Below are positions 1 through 6,002 of a stretch of 6,002 bases of DNA, piece after piece. Source of the stretch: Deltaproteobacteria bacterium (GTDB taxonomy: Bacteria > Desulfobacterota_B > Binatia > Binatales > Binataceae); contig JAKAVX010000182.1 of the NCBI GenBank assembly GCA_021827465.1, positions 1-6,002 on the forward strand, in the 5' to 3' direction. Numbering within the stretch: the first letter of the stretch is position 1; each line of letters starts with the position of its first letter. Below the pieces are notes generated by a model. The model was not told where the DNA came from and did not search any database. It saw only the letters and a program-made list of their open reading frames with translations. Both the position numbers and the translations under genes were made by a program.

Positions 1-249
1 CCGATCTGCACACTCGCGCGATGCGCGGGTATCGTGTTCGGAGCAATTCGGCCGATCGAGGGCGACGAAGGCGAGGCGCGGCTCATTATGCGTTTCATCG
101 CGGAGCAGACCGAAGGGCTCGGATGCCCGGTGCTGTTCGGTATCGAGGCCGGCCATGGAACCGAGAATCTGACTTTGCCGTTCGGGCTCTCCGTTCGCGT
201 CGACGCAACTGCGCGCCGGCTCATCGTCCCGGACGCCGCCGTGAGCTGA
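1..249 (+). CDS. ldcA: LD-carboxypeptidase (peptidase family S66), C-terminal part only
   Basis: Only the last 82 codons are present; the 5' part lies outside the window and the reading frame is open from base 1. The family removes the terminal D-Ala from murein tetrapeptides in the cytoplasm, giving the tripeptide used in peptidoglycan recycling. The visible segment carries the family's C-terminal signature: a strand with GIVFG, then about 25 residues on GIEAGHGTENLTLPFG, in which the His of GHG (window residue 52) is at the position of the catalytic His of the Ser-Glu-His triad. The nucleophile Ser and the Glu are not in view. The gene ends in TGA at 247-249, and 81 bases separate it from the next gene on the same strand. 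Its position two genes upstream of mpl fits a recycling role. Substrate preference (murein tetrapeptide or a peptide antibiotic, as in MccF-type S66 proteins) cannot be decided from this fragment. Confidence 0.85.
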   Translation, partial: PICTLARCAGIVFGAIRPIEGDEGEARLIMRFIAEQTEGLGCPVLFGIEAGHGTENLTLPFGLSVRVDATARRLIVPDAAVS

Positions 250-315
250 TTCGCGATGCGTCCACGCGCTGTAACGTTCGAACCGACTCAGGATTCCCGA
301 GTAGCCCGTGCCGAG

Positions 316-323
316 CGGAGGTG
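316..323 (+). promoter_or_regulatory. Ribosome binding site for the serine hydrolase gene
   Basis: CGGAGGTG contains GGAGGTG, a near-perfect Shine-Dalgarno sequence, and sits 7 bases before the GTG at 331. It fixes the start at this GTG because an in-frame stop (TGA 322-324) rules out any start further upstream. Confidence 0.8.
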
Positions 324-330
324 AAGACGG

Positions 331-1461
331 GTGGGATGGCGTGAGGTAGAGGAGGCATTCACACAGGCGATCGAGCGCCAGGTTTTCCCGGGCGCGACGA
401 TCGTCGTGCGCAAGGGCGGGGCGGTCGTGTTCGAGGGAGCCTTCGGCTCGCGCACACTCGTGCCGGAACGCGCTCCGATGCGGATCGACACGGTCTTCGA
501 TCTGTCGTCGCTCACCAAGGTTCTCGCGACCACATTCGCGGTGATGGTCGTCGCGCGCGACGGCAAGCTTCGCGTGGACGATCGCGTGACGCGCCTGTTT
601 CCCGACTTCGGCGTCCATGGCAAAGGCCATGTGACCTTCCGCAATCTGCTCGCGCATTGCTCGGGGCTCGCCGGATGGCGGCCGTTCTGCCATCGCATTA
701 TCGAGATCGAACGCGGCGGCAAGGTCAATTTCGTCGCGAGCTACGGCGCGAAGGAATGGGTTTACGATCAGATCCATCGTGAGAAACCGGAGGTCGCGCC
801 CGCGACCAGGGCGATCTACTCGGATCTGAATTTCATGCTGCTCGGCGAAACCGTCGAGCGGATGGGCGGACTCTCACTCGACCGCTTCTGCCGGGAGAAA
901 ATCTTTCGCGAGCTGGAACTGAAGTCGACAGACTTTATCGACCTCTCGATGGCGCGCTCGCGACGCCTCGAGCCGGTTCGCGATATGTTCGCCGCGACCG
1001 AGATTTGCCCGGTGCGTAAGCGTCTTTTAGTTGGCGAAGTGCACGATGAGAACGCCTACGCGATGGGCGGTGTCGCCGGGCACGCGGGACTTTTCGCCCC
1101 CGTCCGCGAAGTTGACCGAATTGCACGGGAATTGATCGATTCCTACAAGGGCCGTTCCTCGCTCCTTCCGCAGAAGATTGTCCGCGAGTTCTGGGCCCGC
1201 GACGCGACCGTCCCCGGCTCGACCTGGGCGCTCGGATGGGACATGCCGTCGCCCGAAAACTCCAGCTCCGGCCGGCATTTTCCCCCGACCGCCGTCGGCC
1301 ATCTCGGCTTCACCGGCACCTCCATCTGGATCGATCCCGAGCGCGAGATCGCCGTCTCGCTCCTGACCAACCGGATCCATCCGAGCCGCGACAAGCAGGG
1401 AATCCGCGAGTTCCGCCCGAAAATCCACGACCTCGTCATGGAAGCTCTCGAAAGTGCCTGA
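331..1461 (+). CDS. Serine hydrolase, class C beta-lactamase / penicillin-binding-like fold, cytoplasmic
   Basis: A 376-residue SxxK acyl-enzyme family protein (COG1680 type). The three active-site motifs are all visible: S60-L-T-K63, Y163-S-D165 (the YxN position) and H324-L-G326 (the KTG position, followed by FTGTS). The segment DENAYAMGGVAGHAGLF (239-255) is also typical of this branch, which includes PBP4B-like and esterase-like members. The N-terminus starts directly with a helix and the fold, without a hydrophobic signal peptide, so a cytoplasmic location is likely; that is unlike true beta-lactamases and PBPs. The GTG start has a strong ribosome binding site and an in-frame stop just upstream. 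The 3' end overlaps mpl by 8 nt, which implies co-translation. Known members include esterases, D-amino-acid peptidases and carboxypeptidases, so the substrate is not identifiable. The flanking LD-carboxypeptidase and mpl suggest a muropeptide, as an inference. Confidence 0.88.
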   Translation: MGWREVEEAFTQAIERQVFPGATIVVRKGGAVVFEGAFGSRTLVPERAPMRIDTVFDLSSLTKVLATTFAVMVVARDGKLRVDDRVTRLFPDFGVHGKGHVTFRNLLAHCSGLAGWRPFCHRIIEIERGGKVNFVASYGAKEWVYDQIHREKPEVAPATRAIYSDLNFMLLGETVERMGGLSLDRFCREKIFRELELKSTDFIDLSMARSRRLEPVRDMFAATEICPVRKRLLVGEVHDENAYAMGGVAGHAGLFAPVREVDRIARELIDSYKGRSSLLPQKIVREFWARDATVPGSTWALGWDMPSPENSSSGRHFPPTAVGHLGFTGTSIWIDPEREIAVSLLTNRIHPSRDKQGIREFRPKIHDLVMEALESA

Positions 1462-2908
1462 TTCCCAAAGCGAACTTCGTCTTTCCCGAGTCCCCGCGAC
1501 GGTCCGCCACGTCCATCTGGTCGGCGTCGGCGGCACCGCGATGGCCGCGCTGGCCGGGATGCTCTCCGAGCGCGGGCTTCGGGTGACCGGCTCCGACAAG
1601 GAACTCTACGAGCCCACCGCCTCTCTGCTGGCCGGCTCGCGGGTCGAGGTGATGCGCGGCTTTCGCGCCGAAAACCTCGTCCCCGCGCCCGACCTGGCCG
1701 TGGTCGGCAACGTCATCACGCGCGACAATCCCGAGGCCCAGGCGCTGCTCCAAAGCCCGATCCCGTATCTCTCGATGCCCGAGGCGCTGTGGCACTTCTT
1801 CCTGTCCGGGCGGCGCGTCCTGATGGTCGCGGGCACCCACGGCAAGACGACCTCGACCGCGATGGCCGCGCAAGCGCTGGCCGCGGCGGGCCGCGACCCC
1901 TCGATGCTGGTCGGGGGAATCGCAAAGAACTTCGGCTCCAATTACCGGCTCGGCGCGGGAGGCGACTTCGTTATCGAGGGCGACGAATACGACACCGCCT
2001 TTTTCGACAAGGGACCCAAGTTTCTTCATTACCGGGCCGACGCCGCGATAATCACCGCGGTCGAATTCGACCATGCCGATATCTACCGCGACCTCAATCA
2101 CGTGAAGTCGTCGTTCCGGGCGCTGGCAAACTCGATGGACTCCGCGCGAATCCTCGCGGTATGCGCGGATTTTCCGAACGCGCTCGTCGTATGCGGCGGC
2201 ACGCGCGCAAAGATGCGCACGTTCGGCCTTCATGCGGGCGAATTCCGCCCGGGCGCAATCGCAATCGGTCCGGAAGGGGCGCGGTTCACCGTGATGCGCG
2301 AGGCGCGGCCGGTTTCGCGCGAGATTCTGCTCAGCGTGGGCGGCAGGATGAACGTCGCGAACGCAATCGGGGTGTTCACGATGCTCTCCGAGTGCGGGAT
2401 GGACGCCGAAGAGATCGCGCGCGGGCTCGAATCGTTCACCGGCGTGGTGCGCCGGCAGGAGATTATCGGCGAGGCGGCGGGAATTACGGTGGTGGACGAT
2501 TTCGCGCATCATCCGACGGCGATCCGCGTGACGCTGGAGGCAACCGCCGAGCGTTTTCCGGGACGGCGAATCCTTGCGGCCTTCGAGCCGCGCTCGAACA
2601 CCGCGCGCCGAAACGTTTTCCAGGCGGGATTCGCGGCGGCCTTCGACCGCGCCGCGAAAGTCTATCTCGCGCCGGTCTATTTCAAGGAGAACGATCCGAT
2701 TCCCGAGGGCGAGAGGCTCGACACGCGCGCGCTCGCGCGCGACATCTCGACGCGGGGGCCCAACGCGCTCGCGGCGGAATCGACGGGGCAGATCCTGGAC
2801 GCGATGCTCTCCGAGGCGCGCGCGGGCGACGTCGCGCTCTTCATGTCCAACGGCCCGTTCGACCGGCTGAAGGAACGCTTCCTCGATTCGCTCAAATCCC
2901 GCGCGTAG
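1454..2908 (+). CDS. mpl: UDP-N-acetylmuramate:L-alanyl-gamma-D-glutamyl-meso-diaminopimelate ligase
   Basis: A 484-residue Mur ligase of the Mpl (recycling) type. It joins recycled tripeptide L-Ala-gamma-D-Glu-mDAP to UDP-MurNAc with ATP in the cytoplasm, bypassing MurC, MurD and MurE. The N-terminal Rossmann-type domain has HLVGVGGTAMAALAG (21-35); the ATP loop AGTHGKTTST is at 126-135. EGDEYDTAFFDKGPKF (175-190) is the Mpl-specific version of the metal and ATP-binding region and separates it from MurC. EFDHADIY follows at 204-211. The C-terminal domain carries DDFAHHP (348-354) and FEPRSNTARR (377-386). The length matches the family, which is usually about 450-490. The GTG start lies 8 nt inside the preceding gene, with GGAAG at 1440-1444 as a fair ribosome binding site. 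No downstream partner continues the operon; a 321-nt gap follows. Identification is firm. Confidence 0.96.
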   Translation: MPDSQSELRLSRVPATVRHVHLVGVGGTAMAALAGMLSERGLRVTGSDKELYEPTASLLAGSRVEVMRGFRAENLVPAPDLAVVGNVITRDNPEAQALLQSPIPYLSMPEALWHFFLSGRRVLMVAGTHGKTTSTAMAAQALAAAGRDPSMLVGGIAKNFGSNYRLGAGGDFVIEGDEYDTAFFDKGPKFLHYRADAAIITAVEFDHADIYRDLNHVKSSFRALANSMDSARILAVCADFPNALVVCGGTRAKMRTFGLHAGEFRPGAIAIGPEGARFTVMREARPVSREILLSVGGRMNVANAIGVFTMLSECGMDAEEIARGLESFTGVVRRQEIIGEAAGITVVDDFAHHPTAIRVTLEATAERFPGRRILAAFEPRSNTARRNVFQAGFAAAFDRAAKVYLAPVYFKENDPIPEGERLDTRALARDISTRGPNALAAESTGQILDAMLSEARAGDVALFMSNGPFDRLKERFLDSLKSRA

Positions 2909-2944
2909 CGGCGAGCGGGGCGCAGAACCCCCGCCCGCGCGTCA

Positions 2945-2973
2945 CGGATGCTGCAACAAAAGAGCGGCATCCG
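2945..2973 (+). terminator. Stem-loop 37 nt after mpl, possible transcription terminator
   Basis: CGGATGCTGC (2945-2954) pairs with GCGGCATCCG (2964-2973) across a 9-nt loop, giving a 10-bp stem with one G-T wobble. It is the strongest hairpin after the mpl stop codon and may end the cell-wall transcript. There is no T-run after it on the plus strand, so it is not a classical intrinsic terminator; Rho help or a role in 3'-end protection is possible. Confidence 0.35.
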
Positions 2974-2981
2974 CGCCGCTC
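2955..2981 (-). terminator. Candidate intrinsic terminator on the minus strand
   Basis: Read on the minus strand, GAGCGGC (complement of 2975-2981) pairs with GCCGCTC (complement of 2962-2968) through a 6-nt loop and is followed at once by TTTTGTT (complement of 2955-2961). This is the usual shape of an intrinsic terminator. No minus-strand gene is evident upstream of it, so it could only stop antisense transcription toward mpl, or it may be chance. It shares bases with the plus-strand hairpin at 2945-2973, so the two cannot form together. Confidence 0.3.
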
Positions 2982-3065
2982 GCTCCCGCAGCCCAACGCG
3001 AGGGAAAAAATTAGGCTCGTAGGCGAGGGACCGAAAAAGAACCTTCGTTTCGACGCCTCGTGACG

Positions 3066-3086
3066 CGACCCGTAGCGTGCGGGTCG
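3066..3086. repeat. Inverted repeat CGACCCG / CGGGTCG
   Basis: A perfect 7-bp inverted repeat (3066-3072 and 3080-3086) with a 7-nt spacer. There is no T-run on either side, so it is not a good intrinsic terminator. It lies about 55 bases before the promoter-like hexamer and could be a hairpin or a protein site; no function can be assigned. Confidence 0.3.
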
Positions 3087-3140
3087 ATGCGGCCACTGCA
3101 TGCGCCTCCCTACACTACGGCAGGAACCCGGCGAGGTTAG

Positions 3141-3171
3141 TTGACAGCAAGTTTATTAGATTTCGTGCAAA
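3141..3171 (+). promoter_or_regulatory. Candidate promoter for the right-hand operon
   Basis: TTGACA (3141-3146) is a perfect -35 consensus hexamer and opens the only clearly AT-rich stretch between the two gene blocks (13 G or C in the 40 bases 3141-3180). The -10 element is poor: TGCAAA at 3166-3171 matches three of six positions with a long 19-nt spacer. It lies about 60-90 bases before the first accessory gene, and no other promoter-like sequence was seen after mpl. The weak -10 suggests low or activator-dependent activity, or that the true promoter differs. Confidence 0.4.
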
Positions 3172-3180
3172 TCTGCTAAA
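3152..3180. promoter_or_regulatory. 29-nt dyad, candidate operator in the promoter region
   Basis: TTTATTAGATTT (3152-3163) and AAATCTGCTAAA (3169-3180) form an inverted repeat with 12-nt arms and a 5-nt centre (CGTGC). Ten of twelve positions pair, and one more is G-T. It lies directly downstream of TTGACA, over the expected -10 region, where a dimeric repressor would block RNA polymerase. No T-run follows, so it is not a terminator. No regulator gene is present in the window to bind it. Confidence 0.4.
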
Positions 3181-3186
3181 AGAGCC

Positions 3187-3216
3187 ATGGAATACGGAGG
3201 ACCCGTAAAGGGGTAG
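3187..3216 (+). other. Nine-codon open frame before the small accessory gene
   Basis: ATG at 3187 opens a frame of nine codons ending in TAG at 3214-3216, 13 bases before the GTG at 3230. It contains GGAGGA (3196-3201). AAGGGG overlaps a small hairpin, GGGG(3210-3213)/CCCC(3220-3223). It could be a leader peptide controlling the next gene, but its own ribosome binding site is weak and chance is at least as likely. Confidence 0.15.
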
Positions 3217-3229
3217 ACGCCCCGCCACC

Positions 3230-3484
3230 GTGACCTTGACGCTTGAGGAAAAGCTCGCGCGCCATAAACAGATGAAAGCGTTGGAAGTGCAACGCCACGA
3301 GAAGAGGCGCTCATTGTTCGATGCGCAAAACGACATCGAGCGCCGACGCGACCAGTTCACTACCGAGATCGAGGAAACTGAAACAAGGGGTATCGCTCGC
3401 GCCGCTGTTCTCGATCCAGTGGAGTCTTCTGTGAAGGCCGCTAGACAGCGAAAAATTGAAGCGCTCTGCAGAAAAATTTTATGA
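3230..3484 (+). CDS. Small charged coiled-coil protein resembling a SNF2-type helicase C-terminal tail
   Basis: An 84-residue, highly charged protein. Residues 5-50, from LEEKLARHKQMKALE to the stretch RSLFDAQNDIERRRDQF (28-44), read as a long helix. They resemble, from memory, the C-terminal tail of large SNF2-like helicases found in defence islands, where an 'LFDAQDEI..RRD.LI.EIE' pattern is common. Residues 51-84 do not match that tail. It is therefore either a free-standing small partner or the remnant of a lost helicase. An in-frame TAA at 3206-3208 limits the start to GTG 3230 or TTG 3236, and neither has a well-spaced ribosome binding site (AAGGGG is 16 nt away). The stop overlaps the next start as ATGA (3481-3484), typical of translational coupling, which supports it being a translated gene. 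Function unknown. Confidence 0.6.
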   Translation: MTLTLEEKLARHKQMKALEVQRHEKRRSLFDAQNDIERRRDQFTTEIEETETRGIARAAVLDPVESSVKAARQRKIEALCRKIL

Positions 3485-4746
3485 CAGAACCGACGATCAT
3501 CTGCCCAAACTGCAAAACCGAGATTCGCCTGACCGAATCGTTAGCGGCGCCCCTTATCGAAGCCACACGGAAAGAATACGAGAAACGCCTCGCCCAAAAG
3601 GATACCGACGTCGCCAAGCGCGAATCGGCATTGCGCGAACAGGAGAAGGCGCTTGCCAAGGAGAAAGAATCGATCGAGGACCAAGTCGCGGAGCGGATGA
3701 AAGGGGAGCGTGAAAAGATTGCGGCCGACGAGGCGCGCAAGGCGAAGCAAACGCTCGCCGTCGACCTCGATCAGAAGAGCAAGGAGATCACGGAACTTCA
3801 GGACGTTCTGAAGCAGCGCGACGAAAAGCTCAAGGAAGCGCAGAAGGCCCAAGCCGAACTTTTACGCAAACAGCGGGAACTGGATGACGCCAAGCGGGAA
3901 CTCGAACTGACGATTGAGAAGCGGGTACAGGAGGGACTCACCGCAACGCGCGATAAGGCGCGCAAGGAAGCCGAGGAGGAGTTAAAGCTCAAGGTCGCCG
4001 AGAAAGAGCAGACCATCAAGTCGATGCAAGGCCAGATCGACGAATTAAAGCGAAAAGCCGAGCAAGGTTCTCAGCAGCTTCAAGGCGAGGTCCAAGAGCT
4101 TGAACTCGAAGCGTTACTGAGCGCGAAATTCCCGGCCGACAGGATCGAACCGGTGCCCAAGGGCGAGCACGGCGGCGACGTGTTGCACCGGGTTGTTGGG
4201 CCGCTCGGCCAGGTGTGCGGCACGATCCTCTGGGAATCGAAGCGCACCAAGAATTGGAGCGATGGATGGCTCACGAAGCTTCGCGACGACCAGCGCGCGG
4301 CAAAAGCCGAAATCGCGATCATCGTCAGCCAAGCCCTGCCAAAAGAGGTCGAGACTTTTGACCTCAGAGACGGCGTGTGGATAGCCCACCCGCGCGTTGC
4401 CATTCCTGTCGCGGTAAGCATTCGGCAGTCCCTCATTGACCTTGCCATGGCTCGGAAGGCGTCTGATGGCCAGCAAACCAAGATGCAAATGGTCTATCAG
4501 TATTTGACAGGGTCAAGGTTCCGGCAACGTGTGCAAGCGATCGTCGAGGCTTTTTCCTCGATGCAGGACGACCTTGCCAAAGAAAAGAAGGCCATCACGA
4601 AGCAGTGGGCGAAGCGCGAAGAGCAGATCGACCGCGTGATGCAGGCCACCGTCGGCATGTACGGAGATCTGCAAGGAATCGCCGGCAAGACGCTCCAGGA
4701 AATCGAGGGGCTGGACGTCCGTGCATTGGAAGGTCCCTCAAAATGA
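3481..4746 (+). CDS. DUF2130 family protein, coiled coil plus nuclease-like C-terminal domain
   Basis: A 421-residue protein, near the usual size of the DUF2130 family, whose members are related to RmuC-like PD-(D/E)XK enzymes. Residues 8-11 form one CPNC knuckle. About 28-210 is a long Lys/Glu-rich coiled coil. The conserved domain follows: PVPKGEHGGDVLHRVVG (224-240), TILWESKRTKNWSDGWLTKL (248-267) and IAIIVSQALP (278-287). Asp233 and E252-S-K254 are at the spacing expected for a PD-(D/E)XK active site. The tail FRQRVQAIVEAFSSM (347-361) through KREEQIDRVMQATVGMYGDL (378-397) is also typical of DUF2130. The start ATG overlaps the preceding stop and has no Shine-Dalgarno sequence, so translation probably depends on coupling. 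It likely acts on nucleic acid, but no substrate is established. Its association with a PHP-ATPase suggests a defence role by inference. Confidence 0.88.
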   Translation: MTEPTIICPNCKTEIRLTESLAAPLIEATRKEYEKRLAQKDTDVAKRESALREQEKALAKEKESIEDQVAERMKGEREKIAADEARKAKQTLAVDLDQKSKEITELQDVLKQRDEKLKEAQKAQAELLRKQRELDDAKRELELTIEKRVQEGLTATRDKARKEAEEELKLKVAEKEQTIKSMQGQIDELKRKAEQGSQQLQGEVQELELEALLSAKFPADRIEPVPKGEHGGDVLHRVVGPLGQVCGTILWESKRTKNWSDGWLTKLRDDQRAAKAEIAIIVSQALPKEVETFDLRDGVWIAHPRVAIPVAVSIRQSLIDLAMARKASDGQQTKMQMVYQYLTGSRFRQRVQAIVEAFSSMQDDLAKEKKAITKQWAKREEQIDRVMQATVGMYGDLQGIAGKTLQEIEGLDVRALEGPSK

Positions 4747-4783
4747 AATGCGCGACTGAATGACGTAAAGTCTGCCCGTAATT

Positions 4784-6002
4784 ATGCCAAACCTTCAATT
4801 TCCTCGCGGCTCTGAATGGCGAAGGTGGGACCTCCACGTTCACACGCCGTATTCAGTCCTCAACAGCGACTTCGGCAGCGACTTCGACCAGTACGCGAAG
4901 CGCCTTTTTGAACTCGCAATCCAGAACAAGATCGCAGCAATAGGAGTTACGGATTATTTTTCAATCGAGGGATACAAAGCCCTGAGGGAGCTTCTAAACA
5001 ACTCCGAGCGGCTCGACCGACTTCTCGGTGCCGACCTTGCGCCTAAGGCGCGCGCGATTCTGTTGTTGCCAAATATCGAGCTTCGAATATCGGTCATCGT
5101 TGAAAACAGCAGCGTCAACTTCCACGTGATCTTTTCGGAACAACTTCCGCCCACGGTGATCGAGGAACATTTCCTCCGCGAGCTGGAATTCACGGCACAG
5201 TCTAGCCCAGGGGAGTCGGATGAATCATGGTCGCTTACGATTCCTAATTTAGAGGTACTTGGCAGAAAGTTGAAGGAACAGCACGCAGAGTTTAGTGGAC
5301 AGAGCGACCTCTATGTCGGCATGAAGACTGCCGTCATCGCGCATGAGGACGTCACGAAGGTACTAGAAAAATACCGCTCCCATTTCAAAGACCGCTTCAT
5401 AATTGTTGTGCCAGCAGATGAGGACCTTTCGGAGTGCAGTTGGGACGGACAGGCCCACAACGTTAGGAAGGTTTTAATTCAAAAGGCCCATATGCTCTTT
5501 TCGAGCAATGCTGGCACCAGGGAATTCGGACTCGGGAAAAAGCACCCAACCGTCGCTGACTTCCTCAAAGAGTTCAAGAGTCTAAAACCCTGCATTCACG
5601 GCTCCGACGCGCACTCCTATGAATCTCTCTTCGAGCCTGCAGAGGGCCGAAAACTCTGGATCAAAGGAGACCCAACCTTCTTTGGTTTGCGTCAATTGCT
5701 CTATGAGCCAGCCGACCGAATTTATGTTGGCAGCGAACCTCCCGAGCTGACACATGTAAATCAAAACACCACGAAATATATTGACGGGATCGAACTTGAA
5801 CGAAACCCGGATGCAAAGCCAGACGACATCTGGTTCTCGGGCGAAGTACTGTTCAATCACGGACTCGTAGCGATCATCGGCAACAAAGGTAGCGGTAAGA
5901 GCGCGCTTGCCGACATGCTCGGTCTTCTCGGCGATAGCCGTAACTCGGAGCATTTCTCATTCCTGAACTCGAGCCGTTTCCTCGACAAAAAGGAAAGGCT
6001 GG
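4784..6002 (+). CDS. PHP-domain / P-loop ATPase (TrlF-type), 3' end beyond the window
   Basis: The frame is open from ATG 4784 to the window end (406 codons seen). The N-terminal PHP phosphoesterase domain shows its metal ligands: D16-L-H18-V-H20-T, D57 in VTDYFS, E99 in PNIEL, H114, H187 in AHED, and H272-G-S-D275-A-H277. The linker DPTFFGLRQLLYEP (296-309) is typical of this group. A Walker A motif G366-NKGSGKS373 begins an SMC- or AAA-like ATPase whose remaining parts lie outside. This order matches proteins labelled TrlF-family ATPases, and resembles the PHP-ATPase defence protein called Ppl by Gao et al. (2020); both matches are from memory. An in-frame TAA at 4766-4768 leaves ATG 4784 as the sensible start; the ribosome binding site is weak. 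It lies 37 nt after the DUF2130 gene with no terminator between, so co-transcription is likely. GC content is the lowest in the window. Confidence 0.88.
   Translation, partial: MPNLQFPRGSEWRRWDLHVHTPYSVLNSDFGSDFDQYAKRLFELAIQNKIAAIGVTDYFSIEGYKALRELLNNSERLDRLLGADLAPKARAILLLPNIELRISVIVENSSVNFHVIFSEQLPPTVIEEHFLRELEFTAQSSPGESDESWSLTIPNLEVLGRKLKEQHAEFSGQSDLYVGMKTAVIAHEDVTKVLEKYRSHFKDRFIIVVPADEDLSECSWDGQAHNVRKVLIQKAHMLFSSNAGTREFGLGKKHPTVADFLKEFKSLKPCIHGSDAHSYESLFEPAEGRKLWIKGDPTFFGLRQLLYEPADRIYVGSEPPELTHVNQNTTKYIDGIELERNPDAKPDDIWFSGEVLFNHGLVAIIGNKGSGKSALADMLGLLGDSRNSEHFSFLNSSRFLDKKERL

Follow-up and report, generated by a model that had tools for sequence, protein, structure and literature searches.

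Here we present an analysis of a 6,002-nucleotide stretch of a Deltaproteobacteria bacterium of the Binataceae (contig JAKAVX010000182.1, positions 1 to 6,002; assembly GCA_021827465.1), hereafter the window, in which a gene for a DUF2130 protein is followed by the start of a TrlF-family gene. The original prediction, made from the letters alone, had taken positions 3141 to 6002 for a possible three-gene defence operon with a fixed DUF2130-TrlF pairing. We find that this part of the window most likely holds two real genes and not a three-gene operon, and that its order of helicase tail, DUF2130 and TrlF is best read as the decayed form of a larger locus known from relatives, in which the gene downstream of DUF2130 varies. 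The features of the system, followed by two flanking genes outside it, are these:

3215..3434, + strand: remnant of the 3' end of an SNF2-family helicase gene, covering roughly its final 70 codons and split between two reading frames (tail profile)
3230..3484, + strand: 84-aa open reading frame (ORF) as called, probably not a gene, its last ~30 residues out of the helicase frame
3481..4746, + strand: DUF2130 gene, 421 aa (PF09903)
4784..6002, + strand: TrlF-family gene, first 406 residues, open at the contig end (NF045780)
331..1461, + strand: serine hydrolase / beta-lactamase-fold gene (PF00144, 4.9e-49), flank
1454..2908, + strand: Mur ligase-type gene (PF01225, PF08245, PF02875), presumably Mpl-like, flank

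Three same-strand ORFs do lie where they had been predicted, the first joined to DUF2130 by an ATGA overlap and TrlF starting 37 nt after DUF2130, and the DNA changes from a G+C content of 0.61-0.70 upstream to 0.51-0.59 from about position 3000 on (500-base windows), as had been claimed. The promoter-like site proposed in front of them was not recovered, a scan of the window giving 0 promoters against 1.1 expected by chance. Searches of the window for tRNA genes and Rfam families gave nothing useful, nor did repeats at the 5' boundary, where a single 14-nt pair was found.

The 84-residue reading frame and the helicase remnant

A profile made from the last 110 residues of 11 SNF2 proteins of relatives matched the window at 3215-3385 with 56.9 bits (E 4.6e-15), compared with a maximum of 12.1 bits among 1000 codon-shuffled versions of the tail region. 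The tail continues at 3372-3428 in a second frame, whose stop codon, at 3432-3434, stands 46 nt before the DUF2130 start, a spacing identical to that in the relative L007 (individual loci are given here by L numbers). The change of frame falls near the end of the 84-aa ORF, and a stop codon lies just upstream of it. With 10 helicases from relatives as queries, window pieces outside 3212-3428 all gave E >= 1.1. A tblastn search of plasmids with the 84-aa ORF matched 15 records, all from Salmonella, of which 14 are annotated as SNF2-related or RapA; the other, L001, has no gene listed at the match, which falls close to the C terminus of the second helicase ORF. On that Salmonella plasmid (L001:4221-9454) the SNF2 helicase is read as two separate ORFs, after which come a transposase-like ORF (by eye), an Abi family gene, a methyltransferase and a DEAD/DEAH helicase, and DUF2130 is not annotated in the stretch.

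We conclude that the 84-aa ORF is most likely what is left of the 3' tail of an SNF2 helicase gene that was truncated and had its frame disrupted; intact copies of the gene are found in relatives. The original prediction had thus been right about the helicase-tail likeness of its small protein, which is most likely a broken helicase end and not a component. It is very improbable that the three ORFs form an operon in which the 84-aa coiled-coil protein works as a subunit or its frame as a leader ORF: although the ORF is open and ends in the ATGA overlap, and a short copy of the helicase tail immediately precedes DUF2130 in L011 too, the start of the ORF is helicase tail, its end is out of that frame, the remainder of the tail occupies another frame, and a protein search restricted to similar lengths found just two others, both helicase-tail-like. 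The overlap itself follows from the DUF2130 start, which carries ATGA, so that any ORF in that frame stops there; among the five relatives whose helicase and DUF2130 genes are adjacent, three (L023, L060, L067) have this ATGA overlap between the helicase itself and DUF2130.

By the tail profile, remnants are present in the window, L011, L052 and L076, a weak match in L065 not being counted. In L011 the second, short tail copy (L011:9861-9980) stands 20 nt before DUF2130 even though a complete helicase and a Schlafen/AlbA-type gene are present further upstream, a layout that would fit insertion of a gene together with a duplicated tail. Directly before DUF2130, ORFs which we take to be MNT-like/HEPN-like toxin-antitoxin genes were seen at L052 9221-9978, L076 5506-6305 and L048 9338-9974; in L052 and L076 they come after the helicase-tail remnant. 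Short ORFs upstream of DUF2130 in L040, L048 and L076, which had clustered with the helicase, were rejected as tails: they are nucleotidyltransferase-like and were linked via L081.

A fuller locus in relatives

The relatives compared are the best 80 of at least 330 confirmed DUF2130 loci, obtained by scanning a genome collection with a DUF2130 alignment. An SNF2 helicase is located upstream of DUF2130 on the same strand in 10 of the 80 (that of L025 is cut by the contig end), directly adjacent in five (L007, L023, L060, L066, L067), and 15 loci have Mod and/or Res ORFs of at least 150 aa, assigned to families by clustering. In L007, the PADLOC matches reach 6.4e-230 for the type III methyltransferase and 4.7e-222 for the restriction protein. 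The fuller gene order that these relatives reveal is SNF2 - DUF2130 - variable gene(s) - type III-like Mod - Res. In L178, from Nitrospirota, one direction of transcription takes in SNF2 (truncated at its 5' end by the contig edge), an ORF of 120 aa, a PDC-S02 gene, DUF2130, TrlF, a second PDC-S02 gene, Mod, a SoFic-like gene and Res. Because L178 has TrlF in the slot, the window fits a decayed form of this arrangement; its contig ends inside TrlF, before any Mod or Res position. The defence context that had been suggested is borne out in the relatives, where DUF2130 stands beside type III-like Mod/Res, SNF2, OLD, SIR2-HerA, IetAS and similar genes.

Exchange of the gene downstream of DUF2130

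Taking one scanned member per larger cluster as the basis of identity, we found a defence-type gene in the downstream slot of 39 of the 80 loci. OLD-like ATPase-TOPRIM genes account for 12, SIR2 types for 10, AAA_13/PDC-S06 for 7 and AAA_15/SMC-like genes for 3, and TrlF, IetAS, GmrSD, PDC-S46, DUF2779/Cas4-like, AAA_21 and HATPase occur in one locus each. HerA follows in seven of the ten SIR2-type slots; L051 and L078 reach the contig end, and L058 is outside that HerA cluster. Among same-strand ORFs of at least 150 aa starting within 350 nt downstream, 38 of 50 belong to the named slot groups. By position, OLD genes are at +1 in 12 of 13 cases, the exception being a second piece in L028; for SIR2 cluster 8 the figure is 7 of 7 and for AAA_13 it is 7 of 8, and nine +1 genes overlap DUF2130 by 4 nt. 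As a control, 39 upstream neighbours chosen alike were compared with PADLOC. Of the families matched, the 25 with the most members (5 or 6 each; smaller families not shown) were all of SNF2/helicase type, DrmD first, with no OLD, SIR2 or AAA_13 model among them. In the available DNA of 26 of the 39 loci there is no SNF2, Mod or Res ORF of at least 150 aa, and several of the contigs are short; Mod fragments in L057 and L074 and the helicase-tail remnants in L052 and L076 are not counted in this tally.

The evolutionary dynamics of the slot were followed on a quick maximum-likelihood tree of 82 DUF2130 rows (the 80 loci, the window and L123). By its starred branches, the minimum number of changes is 7 for OLD, 6 for SIR2, 4 for AAA_13 and 3 for TrlF, counts that cannot separate gain from loss. 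From these forced gains or losses, DUF2130 looks like a shared partner of exchangeable effectors. One planctomycete genome holds two DUF2130 copies that are 93% identical (L041 and L069), one with TrlF and the other with OLD.

Two large downstream proteins are candidates for new effectors: one of 910 aa (L006:11312-14044), with no Pfam or PADLOC match at the thresholds used, and one of 1111 aa (L018:11832-15167), with no PADLOC match.

The DUF2130 protein

The 421-aa protein is DUF2130, as predicted, with a PF09903 match of 6.6e-79 and 265.2 bits against a gathering score of 26.7. Its layout comprises a CPxC motif, a long helix (coiled coil), a predicted PD-(D/E)XK nuclease domain (residues ~196-325) and C-terminal helices. 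D233, E252 and K254 are invariant in 36 alignment rows, and the structural model and its fold matches have the alpha-beta-beta-beta-alpha-beta core and D...ExK motif of PD-(D/E)XK enzymes; on this basis the protein is predicted to be a coiled-coil PD-(D/E)XK nuclease. The ratio of non-synonymous to synonymous substitution (dN/dS) of ~0.08 against L005 and ~0.11 against L010 reveals purifying selection. Assignment to RmuC was rejected, there being no PF02646 match at E <= 0.1 or at E <= 1. Sequence searches against solved structures gave no useful match.

PF09903 is a large family, with at least 8000 members, all 8000 scored candidates being significant. Four papers were found to mention DUF2130/PF09903/COG4487, none of them on defence judging by titles and abstract openings, and no functional paper on PF09903 was found.

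TrlF and its pairing with DUF2130

The PHP-ATPase was likewise correctly named. The 406-aa fragment matches NF045780 (TrlF) at 4.6e-87, with 293.7 bits over positions 1-356 of 944 in a gene cut by the contig end, the full-length cut-off being 350 bits, and it matches Ppl (NF042955) weakly (1.5e-05). The gene combines a PHP domain with an ABC/SMC-like P-loop. In a 25-row alignment H18, H20, D57, E99, D275 and H277, which we take to be the PHP site, and the P-loop residues G366, G369, G371 and K372, presumably Walker A, are at least 90% conserved. Full-length relatives are mostly open frames of ~880-1110 aa.

Phylum searches at E <= 1e-80 detected TrlF in 10 of 148 genomes from Nitrospirota, 34 of 398 from Pseudomonadota and 22 of 199 from Planctomycetota, and a search at E <= 1e-40 detected it in 8 of 49 genomes carrying window-like DUF2130. 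We assembled 76 TrlF loci, with flanks of up to ~1.5 kb, some partial, some genomes repeated, and 12 TrlF matches of one search not included. A window-like DUF2130 stands beside TrlF in two of the 76, L085 (= L041) and L123, the window being additional. The DUF2130 profile used here was made from close relatives and does not detect a second DUF2130 subfamily (see below), so that TrlF beside that subfamily would have escaped this count.

A neighbourhood survey, proposed with the original prediction as a way of looking for recurrence, thus places the pair in Planctomycetota (L041) and Nitrospirota (L123/L178), beyond a single lineage. The window DUF2130 is 76% identical to that of L123 and 73% to that of L041, compared with 31% and 33% for TrlF. 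A single clade of the three paired TrlF genes was rejected (approximately unbiased test, p-AU 3.9e-13; 25 rows, long branches flagged). The low identity, the rejection of the clade and the count of 2 in 76 indicate either more than one origin of the pairing or its exchange, and show it to be rare; together with the varied DUF2130 neighbours, the last two rule out the fixed pair that had been proposed. The TrlF closest to that of the window (L179, 58%) is at a locus without window-type DUF2130, and the best plasmid TrlF (50% identity) has no DUF2130 annotated nearby. A literature search on TrlF together with phage gave no match.

DUF2130 in other phyla and on plasmids

In a wider sample, PF09903 had matches in 22 of 299 genomes from Pseudomonadota, 9 of 145 from Verrucomicrobiota and 7 of 149 from Acidobacteriota, the three centre genomes of this sample being known DUF2130 carriers. 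The window-type profile recognises 25 of the 39 matches, with scores of 23 to 784 bits, and not the other 14; L195, L214, L220 and L221, among the 25, are from genomes of the first set. A same-strand downstream neighbour within 350 nt is present at 17 of the 25, and all of these except L209 and L217 were scanned. SIR2 was recognised in L196 and L213, OLD/AriA-like genes in L203, L214 (the L029 site) and L216, and a Lit-like gene in L208; the L223 neighbour has a RAMP domain, and those of L197 and L222 gave no match. The Lit-like peptidase (PF10463; L208:521-1408) follows DUF2130 with a 4-nt overlap. Of the 13 closest loci (>650 bits), 10 have a same-strand downstream neighbour, recognised in five.

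The 14 remaining matches (L186-L194, L200, L210-L212, L218) constitute the second DUF2130 subfamily, with an EMK motif in the 13 that were resolved (L188 was not) and a protein start like CPHCxKAFKIDEAGYADI, and possibly with a different role. The impression that its members mostly stand alone was not upheld on recount.

Eight DUF2130 regions were opened on plasmids. In L183, an ATP-dependent endonuclease, a UvrD helicase and a methyltransferase come next, and in L185 type I restriction-modification (R-M)-like genes; L003 and L180 have an AAA ATPase upstream of DUF2130, and the four other regions show nothing clear. The wider sample therefore makes the defence link clear for the clade of the window and partial for the family as a whole.

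Shared partner, insertion hot spot or housekeeping nuclease

A decayed island, with DUF2130 as the common DNA-side partner of the downstream effector, is the best explanation and in our judgement a reasonably probable one. Several results weigh against it. At the 80 loci, 41 slots have no recognised effector (five of these end less than 700 nt from DUF2130), some slots hold ordinary genes (an ammonium transporter cluster in L042/L044, MmgE/PrpD in L048), and the SMC-like, AAA_21, HATPase and DUF2779 genes are defence-type by resemblance only. All slot labels together require 29 changes on the tree, compared with a mean of 38.9 in shuffles, so the labels are partly inherited; the ambiguity between gain and loss counts here too. 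In the phylum sample, a recognised defence gene is downstream in just 6 of 25 loci (6 of the 17 with such a neighbour), the neighbours of L195, L202, L204, L206, L215 and L219 look ordinary or regulatory, and the second subfamily has a same-strand gene within 350 nt downstream in 6 of 13 cases, which the effector scan did not cover. DUF2130 is also carried by 14 viral contigs (L089-L102), in some near methyltransferase, helicase or polymerase-like ORFs (names by eye), which suggests a phage-side use of the family. Finally, the window TrlF is incomplete, the DUF2130 model has a predicted template modelling score (pTM) of 0.41 and found no Foldseek match at E <= 0.001, and our literature search found no phage assay of any DUF2130.

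Part of this would be expected of a mere insertion hot spot, in which DUF2130 marks a landing place and the downstream genes are independent, with no common mechanism. About half of the slots lack a recognised gene, 74 of the 76 TrlF loci have no window-type DUF2130 in their ~1.5 kb flanks, and Schlafen-like and MNT/HEPN-like genes also occur between helicase and DUF2130. We nevertheless consider a hot spot unlikely, as the effectors lie at +1 on the same strand and not upstream, nine of them with 4-nt overlaps, and +1 placement recurs with unrelated families, once beside a DUF2130 of 34% identity. Even less probable, in our view, is that DUF2130 serves generally in DNA repair or housekeeping, as a nuclease of RmuC-like architecture, and lies near defence genes only incidentally. 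The many DUF2130 loci without a recognised effector and the DNA-metabolism-like ORFs around the viral copies would agree with it; the sporadic presence (5-7% of sampled genomes in three phyla) and the repeated operon-like placement beside effectors argue against it.

Comparison with known systems

The nearest described analogue of the DUF2130 arrangement is Shield, built on a different protein family. As described in the available text (PMC10270631), its ShdA is an RmuC-domain nuclease, encoded by a single conserved gene with differing downstream partner genes that can modulate ShdA or add protection; the system is reported from Pseudomonas only, in four subtypes, and some homologues are inside DISARM-like loci. 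DUF2130 loci share with Shield the constant nuclease and varying downstream partners, and a predicted layout of long helix plus nuclease; they differ in that DUF2130 has no PF02646 match, spans phyla and has known effector families as neighbours. We take long helix plus nuclease to be the RmuC layout as well.

The window TrlF resembles the TrlF and Ppl-like PHP-ATPases in its NF045780 match, PHP-type residues and P-loop; it differs in following DUF2130, unlike TrlF at the 74 loci noted above. L007 and L178 resemble type III R-M systems with an SNF2 (DrmD/BrxHII-like) helicase, having strong PADLOC matches to MTase_III, REase_III and DrmD, but the relatives add DUF2130 and a variable slot, and the window keeps only the helicase tail. 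PrrC-type guard effectors are latent effectors embedded in a restriction locus, where they constitute a second layer. The AAA_13 genes in the slot of 7 of 80 loci (best PADLOC match PDC-S06, with a weak PrrC match) recall these, with the difference that at DUF2130 loci the type of effector is exchanged while DUF2130 is constant. As for DISARM, the SNF2 protein of the relatives matches DrmD models; none of drmA, drmB and drmC was a best match among the scanned L007 and L178 proteins, a subset of the neighbours. A BREX survey (PMC12839542) covers SNF2 helicases, and its main text does not include DUF2130.

A proposed mechanism for DUF2130 loci

On the island explanation, the window would be the downstream part of a decayed SNF2 - DUF2130 - effector(s) - Mod - Res island that lost its helicase save for the broken 3' tail, with DUF2130 and the TrlF start still open and endowed with the expected catalytic residues. 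DUF2130, a putative and possibly dimerising coiled-coil PD-(D/E)XK DNA nuclease, would act as a sensor, processor or licensing factor for the effector adjacent downstream. It may bind or trim aberrant phage DNA, such as the ends left by restriction, and the resulting signal would switch on the neighbour, be it an OLD/TOPRIM nuclease, a SIR2 NADase-HerA, a PrrC/RloC-like AAA_13 protein or the TrlF PHP phosphoesterase. Where R-M genes remain, the neighbour would provide a second, often abortive, layer behind them. The helicase remnant, the gene orders, the exchange of neighbours, the predicted fold, the conserved residues and the purifying selection on DUF2130 are computational results; we infer the defence function, the physical or functional coupling, the direction of signalling and the target of TrlF in this scheme.

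Most partners combine a P-loop ATPase with a damaging domain, either joined or as a pair. They would thus have a common logic and not a common fold, to which DUF2130 would add a nuclease on a long coil. We can go further only tentatively, with slightly less than even confidence, in proposing that window-type DUF2130 is a universal adaptor nuclease of immunity. It would couple to unrelated effectors (OLD, SIR2-HerA, PrrC/RloC-like, TrlF, IetAS, Lit-like) swapped in one slot, within or outside the SNF2 - type III R-M core, often by start/stop overlap and probably through direct contact.

If DUF2130 is such a shared trigger or processor for many effector types, the occupation of one slot by unrelated defence genes would have an explanation, and several systems might be silenced by removing a single protein or activated by its presence. 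Because effectors are swapped, the uncharacterised DUF2130 family can be tested directly as a shared part of bacterial immunity.

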